A stretch of DNA of 64,000 nt from Schaalia sp. ORNL0103 (GTDB taxonomy: Bacteria; Actinomycetota; Actinomycetes; Actinomycetales; Actinomycetaceae). Below are positions 15,972-57,800 of this stretch, in pieces. A program made the translations under genes and the position numbers. The notes beneath the pieces were generated by a model. The model made no database searches and was not told the origin of the DNA. It worked only from the letters and a program-made list of their open reading frames with translations. The stretch is from positions 620,001 to 684,000 of the forward strand of contig NZ_JAHXSA010000001.1 of assembly GCF_019429565.1 (NCBI RefSeq), read 5' to 3'. Positions within the stretch are counted from its first letter, which is position 1. Each line of letters starts with the position of its first letter.

Positions 15972-17341
15972 TCGTCCTCCTGGGCATTCGTGGACGGGAG
16001 CAGTACCGTCAGCGTGAACCAGTGGTCCGCCACGTCCGTGACGGCCTGGCCGCCGTACTTGCGGGCTGTCCACTGGATGGATTTGACGCCCCAGCCGTGT
16101 TGAACGGTGTCGGGCTTGATCGTCGTGAGGCGCCCGCCGGCGTCGGTGTTGAGGTGACCGTCGAACCAGTTGTCGACCCGGATGATCGCCATCTGCCCCT
16201 GACGGAAGAGCGCTAGTTTGATGAGGCGCTTGGCGGGATCGTCGACGCGCCGCGAGGCCTCGATCGCGTTATCGAGGGCGTTGCCGAAGAGGGTAGCGAT
16301 GTCCATTGACGACATGGAGCCCAGCAGGGCGCCGTCGGCGACTGCCGTGAAGTTGATGCCGGCTGCAGCGCACGCACGGCCCTTTGTTGTGAGGATGACG
16401 TCGAGGACCGCATTGCCGCTGTGGTACTGCTGGCCGATCTGCTCGATCGAAGACTCGAGTAAGGCGAACGATGCGGCGGCGCGTCCCGGGTCTAGCTCCG
16501 CGCGGATCGCCTCCACCTGGTGCTTGAGGTCGTGGTGAGCGCGCGCCACCTGCTCCATGTCCTCCTTAGCTGCCAGATACTGGTGGTGCTGGGCATCCAG
16601 GGAGGCCTGGATGGACGCGAGTTCGCGCTCGGTTGCGCTCTGCTGGATGCGCTCGAATTGCGCGAACAGGATCGCATAGCCGGCCAGGTCCACGAGGGTA
16701 CGGATATAGAAGACCTCCCAGCCTGCGCGCCCGGAAAATGGGGTGGCCGTCGAGACGAAGCTGAGGTTGGACAGGGCAAAAATAGAAATGCCGATAAAAA
16801 CGCCAGAGGCAAGGTCTGCGAAACGGAGAGCCGGCAGCGCCCCCTGGCGGTAGACGCGTCGTTCGAAGAAGTAGACGACGGCCAAGCACGTCGACGCAAT
16901 CGCGGCAAAACCGCTGAACGACAACGGGTGCCAGTAGGGCTTGTCGGCGTGGGAGTAGACGACGACTTGCCAGGCGAGGGAAGCAGCGAGCTCGGCAACG
17001 ATGAAGGCGCGTACGCTCATATGCGTTACCCAGCGCCAGTCCAGCGCGGTGCCCACGCGGATGACACACCACACGAGCGCGTACGCCGTCATCATGCCCG
17101 GCACCCACAGGGACAGGGGAGCGCGGCCGAGCAGTTCCTGGGCGCCGACGAGCACCACGAGGCCACCGACAGCCGCAGTGGCGAGCCGCCAGCGGGGGAC
17201 AGCAGCGTTCGGGTTCAGCGCATTGGACGACGCCGAGCGCGCGACGACGAAGACGTACACAAGAGCGGCGCCCCACTCCGCGAGGGCGGTGAACAGGCGC
17301 GGGATGTCCGGCAGGGACTCGAACACGTCAGTGGATCCCAC
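15968..17341 (-). CDS. Sensor histidine kinase, AgrC/GHKL type
   Basis: A 457-residue membrane kinase that would phosphorylate the LytTR regulator encoded upstream. The first 210 residues hold about six membrane segments. A coiled linker follows (about 215-265), then the phosphoacceptor box RAHHDLKHQVE near 270, where HDLKHQ is typical of the AgrC/ComD class, and the GHKL ATP domain with LFGNALDNAIEAS near 355 and GWGVKS near 425. Such kinases usually sense peptide pheromones, but no pheromone gene or AgrB-like protease was found nearby. The start is uncertain: GTG 17341 overlaps the regulator by 14 bp, and GTG 17326 is also possible. Confidence 0.9.
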   Translation of the reverse strand: MGSTDVFESLPDIPRLFTALAEWGAALVYVFVVARSASSNALNPNAAVPRWRLATAAVGGLVVLVGAQELLGRAPLSLWVPGMMTAYALVWCVIRVGTALDWRWVTHMSVRAFIVAELAASLAWQVVVYSHADKPYWHPLSFSGFAAIASTCLAVVYFFERRVYRQGALPALRFADLASGVFIGISIFALSNLSFVSTATPFSGRAGWEVFYIRTLVDLAGYAILFAQFERIQQSATERELASIQASLDAQHHQYLAAKEDMEQVARAHHDLKHQVEAIRAELDPGRAAASFALLESSIEQIGQQYHSGNAVLDVILTTKGRACAAAGINFTAVADGALLGSMSSMDIATLFGNALDNAIEASRRVDDPAKRLIKLALFRQGQMAIIRVDNWFDGHLNTDAGGRLTTIKPDTVQHGWGVKSIQWTARKYGGQAVTDVADHWFTLTVLLPSTNAQEDE

Positions 17342-18038
17342 CCGCGAAGCTCGCCAGAGCCGTCATGAACGCCTTTTTACGAGGCCGGGAGATGCGCAAG
17401 CTGTCCCCGCCCGTCATCAGGCACTCCTGGTCGGCGACTCCGCGAACGTGGGCGAGATTGACGAGGTAGCACGAATTCGAACGGAAAAAGTCGTGACCGG
17501 CGAGCTGTTCCTCCATGGCCTTTAATGTCGAGGTGATCGAGTAGGTGTCGGAGACCGTGTGCACGTCCAGGCGGTGCTTGATTGACTCGACGTAGACGAT
17601 GTCCGCGACGTCGATGCGGTGGGTCGACGTGCCCGACTGCAGGAGGACCGAGGCACCGCGCCGCTTGGCGACAGCCTCGAGGCACCGCGACAGTTCCTGG
17701 GAGAACGCGAACCAGGGCAGCGGCTTCATCAGGTAGGAGAGTGCCCCCACCTGGTACCCGTGGATTGCGAACTGTGCGGCTGACGTGATGAACACGAGGA
17801 CGACCGCCTGATCGACCTCGCGGATTGCGCGCGCCGCGGTCATGCCGTCCACGTGGGTCATCTGGATGTCCATGAGGATGATGTCGTACACAGGCTTGTA
17901 GTCACCGATGATGGCGCCGCCGTCCTCGAAATAGGTGACCTCGAAAGAGACGTTGTTTTCTTCGCTGTAGCGCGCGAGGTAGTCGGCGAGGAGCTGGCGT
18001 GAGACGGCCTCGTCCTCGACGACGGCGATGCGTACCAT
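17328..18038 (-). CDS. LytTR-family response regulator
   Basis: A 236-residue transcription factor with a receiver domain (acidic pair VVEDEAVS near residue 7, phosphoacceptor Asp in IILMDIQM near 56, SYLMKPLP lysine near 107) and a C-terminal LytTR DNA-binding domain (VESIKHRLDVHT, FFRSNSCYLVNLAHV). LytTR regulators bind paired direct repeats in promoters of virulence, bacteriocin or competence genes. GGAGGTTCGG precedes the ATG. It is paired with the AgrC-like kinase that follows. Its targets are not evident in the window. Confidence 0.93.
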   Translation of the reverse strand: MVRIAVVEDEAVSRQLLADYLARYSEENNVSFEVTYFEDGGAIIGDYKPVYDIILMDIQMTHVDGMTAARAIREVDQAVVLVFITSAAQFAIHGYQVGALSYLMKPLPWFAFSQELSRCLEAVAKRRGASVLLQSGTSTHRIDVADIVYVESIKHRLDVHTVSDTYSITSTLKAMEEQLAGHDFFRSNSCYLVNLAHVRGVADQECLMTGGDSLRISRPRKKAFMTALASFAGGIH

Positions 18039-25615: not shown

Positions 25616-25709
25616 GATGCTTCCTTGTCGTTCGAGACGGAGCGCCGATGCTCCGACACGGACAGGATCATGCACGCGAGGACGTGGCGGCCAGCGCCGC
25701 GGCACACCC

Positions 25710-25778
25710 TGTGGATAACGGGAGAGCCGCCAGGTGCCCTGTGGATAAAACGCGTCGGCCCCGCGCCCATGTGGATGG
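25710..25778 (+). repeat. Three DnaA-box-like sites at exact 30-bp spacing
   Basis: TGTGGATAA occurs at 25710-25718 and 25740-25748, and TGTGGATGG at 25770-25778, all in one orientation. The complement of the first two, TTATCCACA, is the perfect DnaA-box consensus. They lie upstream of the hypothetical gene at 25615; the third falls in the loop region of the next terminator. Confidence 0.7.
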
Positions 25779-25791
25779 GGCGGGGCCGACG
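25753..25791 (-). terminator. Terminator after the DUF3043 gene
   Basis: A 17-bp stem with one bulged base (CGTCGGCCCCGC and CCCAT against their complements, loop GTGG). On the minus strand it begins 10 bp after the DUF3043 stop and is followed by CGTTTTAT. Confidence 0.8.
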
Positions 25792-25801
25792 AAAAAGACG
25801 A

Positions 25802-26422
25802 CTACTTCGGGAACTGTCCGCGGTCGACCTGCGGGCGAGGCGAACGCCAGCGCCGCGGCATGATCATGCGGGAGAATGCGTAGTAGGCGGTGCCGGAGGG
25901 AATGTCCTCGCGGGGGTGTGCCTCGGTGAAGACACGCTTGATCTTGCGCCACACGAAGAATGCCTCGATGGCGGTGATGATGAAGGATCCGTACATGAGG
26001 ATGGACGAGCCATAGAGCATGTAAGCCTGGTACTGCAGCGGGACCTTGTTGCCGAACATCGACAGCACCATGATCAGGATGATGGACACCATCATGACGG
26101 CGAGAATCCACTCGGAGAAGGAGTGTCGCGCGTCGACGTAGTCACGCACGAAACGACGTGCGCGTCCCTTGTCGCGGGCCGGCAGGTACTTTTCCTCGCC
26201 GGTGATCATCGCGCGCTGTTCAGCGTCGAAACGCGCGTTGCGGGCGGCGCGGGCGGCACGCTTGGCCTCCTTGCGGTCCTTGGGGACCAGGGGGCGGATG
26301 CGGGCGGCCTCGGCTGCCTTACGCTTCGGCGTGGGGCGGCCTTTCTTGCCGTCGGGCGTCGTGGAGACGGGCTCGACATTCATCGAGGTCTCGTCGTTGT
26401 TGTTCTTGCTTCGTCCAAACAC
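25802..26422 (-). CDS. DUF3043 membrane protein
   Basis: A 206-residue protein of the actinobacterial DUF3043 family. The N-terminal 90 residues are highly basic and alanine-rich (KRKAAEAARIRPLVPKDRKEAKRAARAARN). Two membrane segments follow (EWILAVMMVSIILIMVLSM near 110 and YMLYGSSILMYGSFIITAI near 140) and a short cytoplasmic tail. The function is unknown. Its mycobacterial counterpart, as I recall Rv2206, also neighbours the glycerate-kinase-like and ErpA genes. It starts at GTG with TAGCCT six bases before it, indicating a leaderless message. Confidence 0.88.
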   Translation of the reverse strand: MFGRSKNNNDETSMNVEPVSTTPDGKKGRPTPKRKAAEAARIRPLVPKDRKEAKRAARAARNARFDAEQRAMITGEEKYLPARDKGRARRFVRDYVDARHSFSEWILAVMMVSIILIMVLSMFGNKVPLQYQAYMLYGSSILMYGSFIITAIEAFFVWRKIKRVFTEAHPREDIPSGTAYYAFSRMIMPRRWRSPRPQVDRGQFPK

Positions 26423-52631: not shown

Positions 52632-52670
52632 TTATCCACAGGCCTTTTCGCGAACCGCTCCCTATCCACA
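52632..52670 (-). repeat. DnaA-box pair with 30-bp spacing
   Basis: TTATCCACA (52632-52640) and CTATCCACA (52662-52670) read on the plus strand; both are in the same orientation and exactly 30 bp apart. The second lies in the loop of the terminator below. Confidence 0.7.
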
Positions 52671-52733: not shown

Positions 52734-53177
52734 GTGATGGGATGCTCAATACGGCCCGATCGTCGGGCCATTGGCGCTGCGGGCGAATATACCGCTCGAC
52801 TGGCGCTCGAAGAGGCAGGTCTACGCCTTCTTGACACCAACTGGCGTGATGGTCGCCGGGGCGAACTCGATATCATCGCGCGTGACGAGACCGATCCGTC
52901 GCGTTCGTGGACCGTGATCGTAGAGGTGCGCACCAGGGTTGGGCGCAGGAAGGGGAGTGCGCTTGCGTCGGTCGACCATCGCAAGGTGGCACGGCTTCGA
53001 GCACTGACGGGTGCGTGGTGCAGGGCCCAGGGTCACCTTGCTTCGCGTGTGCGTATCGACGTCGTTGCCATCACCGTGGACGCGCGGACTCTGGAATCCT
53101 GGCCGGCTCCCATGGACGAGGCCGTGGATCTTCGCGCTCTGGGGGCACAGGTCATGTGGTTGCGGGGTGTGCAATGA
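52734..53177 (+). CDS. YraN (UPF0102) endonuclease-fold protein
   Basis: A 147-residue protein of the UPF0102 family with a restriction-endonuclease-like core: AAGEYTARLALEEAGL near residue 14, RRGELDIIARDE near 40 and VIVEVRTRVG near 60, where Arg stands in place of the usual Lys. The GTG start follows a perfect ribosome site. The stop overlaps comM as ATGA. The yraN-comM-dprA cluster suggests a role in DNA processing, but no activity is established. Confidence 0.92.
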   Translation: MMGCSIRPDRRAIGAAGEYTARLALEEAGLRLLDTNWRDGRRGELDIIARDETDPSRSWTVIVEVRTRVGRRKGSALASVDHRKVARLRALTGAWCRAQGHLASRVRIDVVAITVDARTLESWPAPMDEAVDLRALGAQVMWLRGVQ

Positions 53178-54721
53178 GAGGGCCGGGGCTTGCGCGCACG
53201 TATTCCATGAGCATCGTCGGCATCGAGGGGCACCTTGTCGACGTGGAGACATACGCGGGGTCGGGCCTCGTGGCGTTCACGCTCGTCGGCCTGCTCGACA
53301 CCTCCGTGCGCGAGGCACGCGATCGCGTGCGCGCTGCGTTCGAGTCGTGCGGCCTGGACGTCTTGGACCAACGCATCACCGTGAATCTGTCCCCCGCGGG
53401 CATTCCGAAGTCGGGGTCGGCTTTTGACCTCTCGATCGCGGCGTCCATTGCTCTGGCCACGGGCCTTGTCTCGCCGGTGGCTTTTGAGGACGCGGTCCTC
53501 GTTGGTGAGCTTGCGTTGGATGGAAGTATTCAGCCGGTGCGCGGAGTGCTGCCGGCTGTCCTCGCGGCGCGTTCGCGGGGCGTTCGCCGTGTGATAGTAC
53601 CGTCGGCATGCGCCCAGGAAGCGCGTCTGGTCAGCGGCATTGAGGTCTTGGACTTCGCACATCTGGCTGACCTGATCGCGTGGGCCGGGGGAGAGGCTGT
53701 GAAGGCTCCGTTCCACGGGAGGATGGGTGTGCGCCGCGAGGGGGAACGTGACGGTGATACGACCCTCGCAGACATGGCCGACGTGCGTGGTCAGCCGGAA
53801 GCAATTGCGGCTCTGGAAGTTGCCGCTGCCGGTGGGCACCACGTGTTTCTTCTGGGAGAGCCCGGATCCGGCAAGACGATGCTCGCCTCCCGACTCCCGA
53901 CGATACTTCCAGATCTCGACGCCGACACCGCTCTCGTCACCACCTCGTTGCATTCGGTGGCGGGCCTGTTGCCCCCCTCGATATCGCTGATGACGCGGCC
54001 TCCATTCCAAGCCCCACACCACTCGGTGACCATGCCAGCACTGATTGGTGGCGGCACGCGCACGCTCGTCCCCGGGGCAGCGTCGCTGGCGCATGGAGGG
54101 ATCCTCTTCCTGGACGAGGCCGCCGAGTTTGCTCCCTCCGTCCTTGACTCGCTGCGCGAACCCCTTGAATCGGGTGTCATCCATGTGCACCGCTCCGGCG
54201 TTCAGGCGCGTTATCCCGCCGCATTCCAACTGGTGATGGCGTCAAATCCCTGCCCGTGCGGAGGCGGATACGGAGGGCGTCGATGCACCTGTTCCTCGAT
54301 GAATCGACGCAGGTATCTCGCGCGTTTGTCCGGGCCGTTGCTGGATCGGATGGACATCCGCATCGACGTGCATACTCCCAGCCGGGCGGATCTGGCGTCG
54401 ACACAGACACGCGATTCCGCGTCGATACGTGAGCGTGTTATCGAGGCGCGCTCGAGGGCTCGATCGCGCCTTAAGGGGACGCCGTGGACCATGAACGCGC
54501 AGCTTCCGGGAGCGTGGCTGCGACACCACTCAGGCATCGATGCCTCTCTTATTCATCAACTTGATCGGCTCGTCGATTCCGGTCACTCGTCTATGCGCGG
54601 AATCGACCGGATGCTACGCCTGGCATGGACGCTCGCCGATCTCGAGGCCGCGCCACGGCCGACCTTTGACCACATTGTTGCAGCGCAGCAGCTGCGGAAC
54701 GGAGCGGATCACTATGAATGA
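53174..54721 (+). CDS. comM: ComM/YifB-family AAA+ ATPase (Mg-chelatase-like)
   Basis: ComM is a hexameric helicase that extends branch migration during natural transformation in Haemophilus and Vibrio. The 515 residues have the ChlI-like N-terminal domain (VDVETYAGSGLVAFTLVGL), Walker A GEPGSGKTMLASRLP near 235, Walker B GGILFLDEAAEF near 315 and the Mg-chelatase C-terminal domain with a Cys cluster (NPCPCGGGYGGRRCTC near 358). ATG overlaps yraN's stop, and dprA starts 8 bp before this stop. The family is widespread, also in species not known to take up DNA. Confidence 0.92.
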   Translation: MRGPGLARTYSMSIVGIEGHLVDVETYAGSGLVAFTLVGLLDTSVREARDRVRAAFESCGLDVLDQRITVNLSPAGIPKSGSAFDLSIAASIALATGLVSPVAFEDAVLVGELALDGSIQPVRGVLPAVLAARSRGVRRVIVPSACAQEARLVSGIEVLDFAHLADLIAWAGGEAVKAPFHGRMGVRREGERDGDTTLADMADVRGQPEAIAALEVAAAGGHHVFLLGEPGSGKTMLASRLPTILPDLDADTALVTTSLHSVAGLLPPSISLMTRPPFQAPHHSVTMPALIGGGTRTLVPGAASLAHGGILFLDEAAEFAPSVLDSLREPLESGVIHVHRSGVQARYPAAFQLVMASNPCPCGGGYGGRRCTCSSMNRRRYLARLSGPLLDRMDIRIDVHTPSRADLASTQTRDSASIRERVIEARSRARSRLKGTPWTMNAQLPGAWLRHHSGIDASLIHQLDRLVDSGHSSMRGIDRMLRLAWTLADLEAAPRPTFDHIVAAQQLRNGADHYE

Positions 54722-55874
54722 CACAGAACTGTGGGAGGCTGCCTGGTGGTCTGCCGTCGCTGAGCCGGCCGATCCGTGCGCACGCATCCTTCGTCAGGCC
54801 TTAGGGGATCGAGATGCGCGCGCGTGGCTGATCGGGGCCTGGTCGGCACCGCCGTTGGCTCTTGCCCGTCACTCGAGGATTGACTGGCACACGCAGTGGA
54901 ATCGGTGGAGGCAGCGCGCCCTCTCGGTCGACATCGACAGTGAGCTGACACGTGTCGCTCGTGCGGGCGGCGGATTCATGACACCCGGCGATCCACGCTG
55001 GCCAGACCACCTTGCGTGCCTGGGGGAGGATGAGCCGATGGGGCTGTGGTTCCTCGGCGACCTGCCCGAGGCTCCGCAGGCGGATCATCATCTGTCTATC
55101 GTGGGAGCTCGCGCGTCCACCGGCGCGGGAAACAGGTGCGCACGCAACATGGCAGCATTCGTCGCTTCCGCAGGCGTGACGGTGGTGTCTGGGGGAGCGA
55201 TTGGCATTGACATCGAAGCTCACCGGGGTGCGCTGTCCGCGCGTGGGCGCACGATCTGCATCCTCGCTGGTGGCGTGTGCAATCCGTACCCCGCATGCCA
55301 CGGTGGCGACTTTCGTGCTGTCATCGACGGCGGTGGTGCCCTCATCTCCGAGGTTGCACCAACCGCCAGGCCGGCGAAGTGGCGTTTCCTGACCCGTAAT
55401 CGCCTGATTGCTGCATGGAGTGGGGCAACCGTGGTCGTCGAGGCGGGAGCGCGCTCCGGTGCCCTTGCGACGGCGCGTCGTGCCATGGAATACGGGCGTG
55501 AGCTAGGCGCAGTCCCCGGCGCGGTCGACGCGCCGATGTCGGTGGGGTGCCTCGAGCTTGCGCGCAACGGAGCGACGATCATCCGCGATGGGCGCGACGC
55601 CCTCGAACTCGTGCGCCCGGTGAGCGTTGACGCCGCCCAGCCTCTGTTCGGTATGCCCGTCGACGACGATCACGGGGTTGATGCCCTAGAGCCAACTCTG
55701 CGTCGGGTGTGGGAGGCGCTTCCCAGGAGCGCTCCCGCGTCGGTCGAAGCGATCTGTGTCGCCGCGGCCCTGTCGCGCGAAGAAGTGAACTACGCGCTCA
55801 TGGAGCTCTCGGTTGCGGGCCTAGTGGCCGGATCGACGCGTGGCTGGACGCGAATAGGGGGAGGCAGACCGTAG
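54714..55874 (+). CDS. dprA: DNA-processing protein DprA
   Basis: DprA loads RecA onto incoming single-stranded DNA during transformation. The 386-residue protein has an N-terminal extension (about 1-115) and the Rossmann core with SIVGARASTGAGNRCA near 125, VVSGGAIGIDIEAHRGAL near 155, ISEVAPTARPAKWRFLTRNRLIA (in parts) near 215, and ALATARRAMEYGRELGAVPG near 255. The usual SGxARGID reads SGGAIGID here. A winged-helix C-terminal domain (VEAICVAAALSREEVNYALMEL) ends it. ATG overlaps comM by 8 bp, so the two are translated together. Confidence 0.93.
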   Translation: MNDTELWEAAWWSAVAEPADPCARILRQALGDRDARAWLIGAWSAPPLALARHSRIDWHTQWNRWRQRALSVDIDSELTRVARAGGGFMTPGDPRWPDHLACLGEDEPMGLWFLGDLPEAPQADHHLSIVGARASTGAGNRCARNMAAFVASAGVTVVSGGAIGIDIEAHRGALSARGRTICILAGGVCNPYPACHGGDFRAVIDGGGALISEVAPTARPAKWRFLTRNRLIAAWSGATVVVEAGARSGALATARRAMEYGRELGAVPGAVDAPMSVGCLELARNGATIIRDGRDALELVRPVSVDAAQPLFGMPVDDDHGVDALEPTLRRVWEALPRSAPASVEAICVAAALSREEVNYALMELSVAGLVAGSTRGWTRIGGGRP

Positions 55875-56861: not shown

Positions 56862-57392
56862 CTATCGAGCCAACACGTCGTCCCAGGGGAGAAGACGCGG
56901 GCGCCCGAGCGTCATACGTATTGGATCGATGTACGTGCGCCTGCCGGTCTTTGCGCCCCAGTGCAGTGTGGGTGAGTCCCCTTCGACAACGCCTATCAAG
57001 TCTCCTTTCTGAACGTGATCGCCGACCGCGACGGATGGCGTCACGGGCAGATACGTCGACCAGACGACGCGGCCGCCGACCTCGTGCCGAATCGAAATGA
57101 CGCCGCGGCCCGCGATGGGACCGGCAACGGTCACAGTGCCCGATGCGCACGCGTACACCGGGGAGGGAGCGGGATACTGCAACGTCACCCCGCGACGCCC
57201 GGGAAGCCAGTCGTGGGCGGGCGGAGAGAACCCTTCGACGACGGCCACGGGCCCACCTGTCGGCCACTGCCACCGCTCGCGGTGCGGGGCTGCTGCGCCT
57301 GGCGGTACCGCGATGATGAGCAGTGTTACGACGAAAGTGACGGTTAGTGAAGCGGCGCTGAATCGGCCACGGTTCGGGATTACTGAGGTCAT
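56862..57392 (-). CDS. Degenerate M23 (LytM-like) domain protein, exported
   Basis: A 176-residue exported protein with an N-terminal hydrophobic signal (FSAASLTVTFVVTLLIIAVPPG, in parts). The LytM fold is recognisable from TVTVAGPIAGRGVISIRHEV and the end LHWGAKTGRRTYIDPIRM. The zinc motif HRGVDL is replaced by RRGVTL near residue 70, and the first histidine of HxH by Thr (PTLHWG). Three of four zinc ligands are therefore missing. It is probably inactive as an endopeptidase and could act as an EnvC-like activator. It faces rpsB, as Rv2891 does in mycobacteria from memory. Confidence 0.85.
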   Translation of the reverse strand: MTSVIPNRGRFSAASLTVTFVVTLLIIAVPPGAAAPHRERWQWPTGGPVAVVEGFSPPAHDWLPGRRGVTLQYPAPSPVYACASGTVTVAGPIAGRGVISIRHEVGGRVVWSTYLPVTPSVAVGDHVQKGDLIGVVEGDSPTLHWGAKTGRRTYIDPIRMTLGRPRLLPWDDVLAR

Positions 57393-57800
57393 GACATCAG
57401 CGTGAGGCGATGCGCCGCACAGGTCTAGTCGCCCGGCGCCGGTTGTGGATACTGCTGCGACGCGAAAGGACCCTGTGGATAACGAGCGAAAACGGCGTGT
57501 CTGTGGCGAACTGCCCGGGCCTCGTCGACGATGAATCCAGTAGGCAACGTCTCATCCCCCTGGTTTCGAACATTTGTGCACTTGTGAGGTAAGATAGCCG
57601 GGCACTTGCCCTGTGCAGGTGACTTCGCGTGCCATTATCGCGACCCACGGGAAACCGCCAGGGGAGCGAGGCGCGGCGGCTTCGGTCCTTTCGGGGATGG
57701 TCGCCGGTCATGGCACCAGGGTGCGCAACGCGCACAGCAAACCGATAACCCCGGGGGAAACCCCACTGATCACTCGCGACTTGCGGGGAAAGGACGATCC
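57393..57800. other. 408-bp intergenic region with DnaA boxes and rpsB leader
   Basis: The gap between the divergent M23 and rpsB genes has no coding frame I accept. It contains DnaA-box-like TGTGGATAC (57444-57452) and TGTGGATAA (57474-57482), exactly 30 bp apart, a weaker TGTGGCGAA at 57502, and one copy of the 9-base GGCCTCGTC repeat (57518-57526). TAAGAT at 57590-57595 is a likely rpsB -10 box, leaving a leader near 200 nt with small hairpins such as GGGCA/TGCCC at 57600-57611. Confidence 0.6.
57444..57482 (+). repeat. DnaA-box pair with 30-bp spacing near rpsB
   Basis: TGTGGATAC and TGTGGATAA in the same orientation, starts at 57444 and 57474. The second has the perfect DnaA-box core. 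Confidence 0.7.

Follow-up and report, generated by a model that had tools for sequence, protein, structure and literature searches.

In the 64-kb stretch of the Schaalia sp. ORNL0103 genome analysed here (the window), the gene of a hypothetical protein of 184 aa is preceded by three 9-bp boxes, TGTGGATAA at 25710 and 25740 and TGTGGATGG at 25770, located on a common strand in exact 30-bp steps (Table 1). An earlier note on this DNA had described these three sites in one orientation and in 30-bp register; the positions are confirmed, and the register extends to the whole genome. The third box, which lies within the hairpin loop downstream of the neighbouring DUF3043 gene, has retained its place and spacing in G058 (CCATCCACA) and G011 (CCTTCCACA). 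A search in Rfam at 25710-25778 gave no match to an RNA element, and the searches in Pfam, NCBIfam and PADLOC revealed no match for the 184-aa protein. Relatives of this protein in G058, G011, G001, G002 and G022 are likewise preceded by a box pair. The same window encodes a response regulator, of the LytTR type as read by eye, at 17328-18038 on the minus strand.

Table 1. Boxes, predicted promoter elements and genes in the window.
Feature	Position	Strand	Remarks
Hypothetical gene downstream of the boxes, 184 aa	25061..25615	-	
Predicted -10 (~25664-25669) and predicted transcription start (~25657)	25657..25669	-	Predicted by analogy with the 51/52-nt rule
Proximal box of the hypothetical gene (TTATCCACA on the minus strand)	25710..25718	-	Kept in G058 and G011
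Distal box of the hypothetical gene, 30 bp farther upstream	25740..25748	-	Kept in G058 and G011
Terminator-like hairpin of the upstream DUF3043 gene	25755..25793 (limits approximate)	-	Fold -36.6 kcal/mol, z -6.6
Third, weaker box (CCATCCACA), another 30 bp upstream	25770..25778	-	Within the hairpin loop 3' of the DUF3043 gene
DUF3043 gene, upstream neighbour	25802-26422	-	
Distal box of the yraN-comM-dprA operon (TTATCCACA)	52632..52640	+	
Proximal box of the yraN-comM-dprA operon (CTATCCACA)	52662..52670	+	
yraN (UPF0102)	52734..53177	+	
comM (Mg-chelatase-like competence protein)	53207..54721	+	
dprA (DNA processing protein A)	54714..55874	+	
M23 peptidase gene	56862..57392	-	Leaderless; proximal box to ATG exactly 51 nt
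Proximal box of the M23 peptidase gene (GTATCCACA)	57444..57452	-	
Distal box of the M23 peptidase gene (TTATCCACA)	57474..57482	-	

The perfect 9-mer TGTGGATAA is present four times in the window, at 25710, 25740, 52632 (minus strand) and 57474, against 0.05-0.09 copies expected from Markov models, in agreement with the excess claimed in the earlier note. Both further perfect copies are partnered at exactly 30 bp, by TGTGGATAG at 52662 (minus strand) and TGTGGATAC at 57444, giving three independent 30-bp pairs in the 64 kb (25710/25740, 52632/52662 and 57444/57474). Same-strand TGTGGA pairs at exactly 30 bp number four in the window versus 0.006 expected, for a spacing that was picked post hoc. 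The genome-wide statistics, based on pattern searches, show the same excess of 30-bp spacing: TGTGGATA-N22-TGTGGATA was found nine times in the 2.35-Mb genome and its reversed-pattern control not once, and about half of the 28 TGTGGA pairs spaced 15-45 bp apart lie at 30 bp, no rival spacing being comparably common. A longer motif, searched with up to three mismatches at spacing 30, gave 16 sites genome-wide and none in the control. Arrays of three boxes (30 + 30) are present in more than one species at ssb and at the hypothetical gene of the window, and others are found elsewhere; the proposed regulon defined by the box pair comprises about 15 promoters in this genome. A 19-bp tandem repeat, TGTGGATAGGTTACGACGA, at G000 C1:420823-420868 contains the 8-mer common to the boxes and lacks the promoter layout; similar repeats are carried by G010 and G011.

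The boxes, read as TTATCCACAG, always face the gene start in a single orientation. Among the 119 pairs from the family, 52 have an ATG exactly 51 or 52 nt past the proximal box (30 + 22 pairs), the background being 1.8 per offset, and two sites from the mismatch search, found blind to gene starts, both have the ATG at +52. The promoters aligned by their ATG have an A at -11 in 83% and a T at -7 in 87% of cases, together with a weak TTG at -35 to -33; this register and these promoter features would place the box centres near -56 and -86 of predicted leaderless promoters. The simplest reading is that these would be leaderless sigma-70-type promoters, where the start codon coincides with the predicted transcription start, the proximal box would occupy positions -60 to -52 (centre about -56) and the distal box would lie one spacing higher, approximately 80-88 bp upstream. 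Where a gene has a leader, as the hypothetical gene of the window does, the ATG is found farther downstream. The element keeps a fixed distance to the gene start, as expected of a competence regulon.

Gene starts and names were taken from our own ORF calls and profile searches, and most target identities in the Schaalia sp. ORNL0103 genome are backed by Pfam or NCBIfam. The targets related to DNA uptake and processing include comEA, directly followed by comEC, as well as ssb and yraN(UPF0102)-comM-dprA; the pilus targets are an Flp-type pilin (DUF4244) in the tad locus and the CpaE-like gene heading that locus. The remaining targets are genes of an M23 peptidase, TagI, an FtsK/EccC-like ATPase, a WXG100 protein, a WXG-like protein, three DUF559/AbiEi-like proteins, a TPR protein and the 184-aa hypothetical protein of the window. 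The WXG100 target scored above the cut-off, and the FtsK protein, read as a fragment, matched EccCa with an E-value of 6e-25, but its score was far below the curated cut-off. In related species, the pair is additionally located upstream of comF, CpaB, prepilin peptidase and recA, the comF and prepilin peptidase fragments being below the Pfam cut-off and identified partly by reading the sequence, and upstream of a TadA-like ATPase identified by sequence reading only. One element thus precedes both uptake genes (comEA/EC, comF, pilus) and DNA-processing genes (ssb, dprA), as a competence regulon should; tagI and the genes of the WXG and DUF559 proteins are not classical competence genes.

Some of the less characterised targets can be described further. 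The DUF559/AbiEi-like paralogues occur several per genome, each with its own box pair and leaderless start, e.g., at L062 1588-2682 (G000 C3:11524), L063 on the minus strand (C3:82230) and L413 (C1:334967); paralogues behind pairs are also present in G001, G002, G011, G022, G058 and G008, and the matches to AbiEi in PADLOC are weak. The TPR protein is encoded behind a pair between rpsT and lepA (L042 1628-2644, G000 C1:517384), shows weak similarity to RNPP_C and FxSxx-COOH TPR proteins and has no DNA-binding domain. Two related proteins of 76 and 69 aa, belonging to no known family, are encoded behind 28-bp pairs at L137 and L139 (G033 C1:1237132 and C1:1624421). At L381 6306-8314 (G000 C2:60500-72500), a single box pair is followed by a WXG-like gene and then by an open frame of 564 aa in the same direction, possibly forming a secreted-effector operon.

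A comparison of eight orthologous promoters with those of the close relative G058 indicated that the boxes are 99% identical (142/144 positions), the linkers 68% (115/168) and the flanks 82-83% (upstream 200/240, downstream 336/408). The linker is the fastest-changing part of the region in this comparison, yet its length is constant, and the element is kept between species at orthologous genes, which is also a property of a competence regulon. In a survey of comEA in 40 genomes of the family, 21 genomes had a strict TCCACA pair in sense orientation and none had one in antisense orientation, against 0.03 pairs expected from Markov resampling; 20 of these 21 loci have an ATG or GTG at 50-53 nt. 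The other 19 comEA loci have no strict pair, and several of them have one-mismatch versions; loss of ComEC as the cause of the missing boxes was ruled out, ComEC being present in 56 of the 56 genomes tested. The named species with a pair at comEA include Schaalia odontolytica, whose ComEA is 92% identical to the ComEA fragment of our genome. In Streptomyces, Microbacterium and Glutamicibacter, the search at comEA revealed no box pair, which covers the Micrococcales sampled (a set without M. luteus). Two records, L271 (titled Xylanimonas cellulosilytica) and L273 (Sanguibacter keddieii), encode ComEA proteins 93% and 85% identical to our own and have the same 30-bp pair; they look like mislabelled Schaalia relatives.

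The spacing of the boxes is near-constant within a species and differs among species, the overall range being 24-32 bp. It is 30 bp in the group of Schaalia sp. ORNL0103, 29 in G001, 28 in G034 and G033, 27 in G008 and G007, 26 in most pairs of G022 and 25 in G072, with a mix of 29 and 30 in G002. The argument of the earlier note that 30 bp, about three helical turns, would present the boxes on one face of the DNA does not hold generally, since relatives have spacings of 25, 26, 27, 28, 29 or 30 bp, and helical phase in itself is not the governing principle. The simplest idea is that a dimer or oligomer with a species-tuned geometry would explain the spacing, and the species-specific values offer a natural experiment on the co-evolution of a transcription factor and its operator. 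G028 contains 11 pairs of 24 bp, TGTGGATACAGTCCCCTCGCGCGGTGTGGATA, that are nearly identical and have a conserved linker (e.g., C45:82916-82947, L178), one of them at comEA, and 32-bp pairs beside the 24-bp ones; this looks like an amplified or lengthened operator.

The box pairs, their constant distance to gene starts, their conservation and most of the gene identities were read directly from the sequences. On this basis, we find it very probable that the boxes serve as operator of a regulon for competence (DNA uptake) in Actinomycetaceae and act as a twin-box activator site. Each regulated promoter would be of the sigma-70 type, combining a good -10 with a weak -35, and would have two, sometimes three, direct repeats of (T)TATCCACAG upstream of it. 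The predicted factor would bind the boxes, probably as a head-to-tail dimer or oligomer with a geometry that sets the spacing of the species, and would most likely recruit RNA polymerase to the predicted start positions; the position of the boxes and the weak -35 are the features that suggest activation and not repression. The programme switched on in this way would include the Flp/Tad pilus, ComEA-ComEC and ComF for uptake, SSB, DprA and ComM, plus RecA in one genus, for the handling of single-stranded DNA, and also the M23 peptidase, TagI, type VII secretion-like proteins and DUF559/AbiEi-like proteins, and the cells may be naturally transformable.

Other roles of the boxes have to be weighed against this operator. 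The earlier note had suggested a DnaA titration, reactivation or regulatory site; the fixed distance to the starts of competence genes supports the regulatory part, and the same register speaks against the other two. As in datA/DARS-type DnaA sites, the 9-mer matches the DnaA consensus exactly and several sites are scattered across the genome, but here they are direct repeats with a fixed spacing in each species and a fixed distance to the starts of competence genes, whereas sites of the titration type would be expected to be independent of gene orientation and distance. Sites acting on replication timing, and not on the neighbouring gene, would give no reason for the constant orientation, the constant start-codon distance and the common gene function, and this role is rejected as highly improbable because the register to the start codons is fixed. 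The idea of a small mobile or amplified repeat could draw on the near-identical pairs of G028 with their one linker and on the 19-bp tandem repeat with the same 8-mer, but it is practically untenable for our genome, where each site has a different linker, the boxes are constant and the linkers change faster than the flanks. The sites behave like putative protein-binding sites and not like a duplicated repeat, as the earlier note had argued. It also seems rather improbable that the boxes bind a repressor holding the competence genes off. Position by itself is no proof of activation, and mutations in the gene of a DNA-binding protein of M. luteus raise comEA expression (PMC8467076), but the boxes are located upstream of the -35, off the promoter core, and this position combined with a weak -35 is the usual activator layout.

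The identity of the binder is a separate question within the operator reading. DnaA itself, bound to twin DnaA boxes, could activate the competence genes and couple uptake to the state of replication. DnaA is a known transcription factor, and the boxes of our genome are mostly the perfect 9-mer TTATCCACA, unlike those of G008 and the distal box of G034. A single Bac_DnaA_C hit was obtained in each of the 25 genomes tested, so DnaA is single-copy, no paralogue competes for the role, and a DnaA paralogue was rejected as the binder. The box composition of oriC and of the competence sites can be compared as a test of DnaA in G000, G007, G008 and G034 only, with a clear outcome only in G034, where pairs were searched by TCCACA alone; the pairs of G001, G002, G011, G022, G033 and G072 were found with TGTGGATA, which biases their box composition, and the evidence unaffected by this bias is limited there to the comEA test, the start-codon register and the searches with TCCACA. 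In G034, all 12 of the 12 distal boxes read TTCTCCACA and the oriC-like cluster has a C at that position in none of its 7 boxes, although the numbers are small. In G008, TTR is found in 1 of 18 boxes and the oriC boxes are mixed as well (2/6), so this genome does not decide for or against DnaA. The domains of DnaA are flexibly linked, and a fixed species-specific spacing is not a trait expected of it. The evidence leans slightly against DnaA, which we regard as an unlikely binder, and a dedicated factor other than DnaA is probably responsible. Two candidates for such a factor were discarded: the HTH_17 protein suggested by the genetics of M. luteus (PMC8467076) has no close orthologue in the regulon-bearing G033 and G034, and a stand-alone winged-helix protein encoded 2.3 kb from ssb has close matches confined to the genus.

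Several known systems resemble the proposed operator. In streptococci, the alternative sigma factor SigX reads a single promoter element, the CIN-box, that defines the late competence regulon; here too, one common element would mark such a regulon, but it consists of an ordinary -10 and upstream twin boxes and not of a single element read by a sigma factor. The K-boxes of ComK in Bacillus are also two short boxes with discrete spacing upstream of late com genes, read by one master factor (PMC3536758); unlike the present TTATCCACAG direct repeats with one main spacing per species, they have the form AAAA-N5-TTTT and are spaced 8, 18 or 31 bp apart, with several spacings per genome (PMC3536758). 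No box sequence is common to both, and the element is therefore not assigned to the ComK systems. In Vibrio cholerae, TfoX and QstR co-regulate competence genes with a secretion system used on neighbours (PMC6237807), and a similar junction of competence and secretion is predicted here from the genes, although the former involves type VI secretion and a LuxR-type regulator and the latter WXG100/EccC-like genes with a putative antibacterial use. It is possible, if doubtful, that an activator with DnaA-like specificity, or DnaA, reads a two-box ruler reset in each species (24-32 bp) and switches on uptake together with type VII-like secretion, which would make neighbour killing and DNA capture one programme. 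M. luteus, from the same phylum, uses Flp/Tad pili, ComEA, ComEC and DprA as its transformation machinery, and the box-bearing genes correspond to the gene set of this Flp-pilus-dependent transformation (PMC4322843).

A search of open-licence papers revealed no earlier description of the paired element, and a 2026 study of the model species M. luteus lists the upstream regulators of transformation as still to be identified (PMC12849477). The paired element points to a candidate circuit controlling natural transformation in a phylum with no known example of one, and it supplies exact sites to mutate and a probe for fishing out the factor. S. odontolytica and its relatives are oral bacteria, and S. 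odontolytica is a host of Saccharibacteria; the regulon predicts that these species would be transformable and, if true, it would make several genes of unknown function candidate competence genes.
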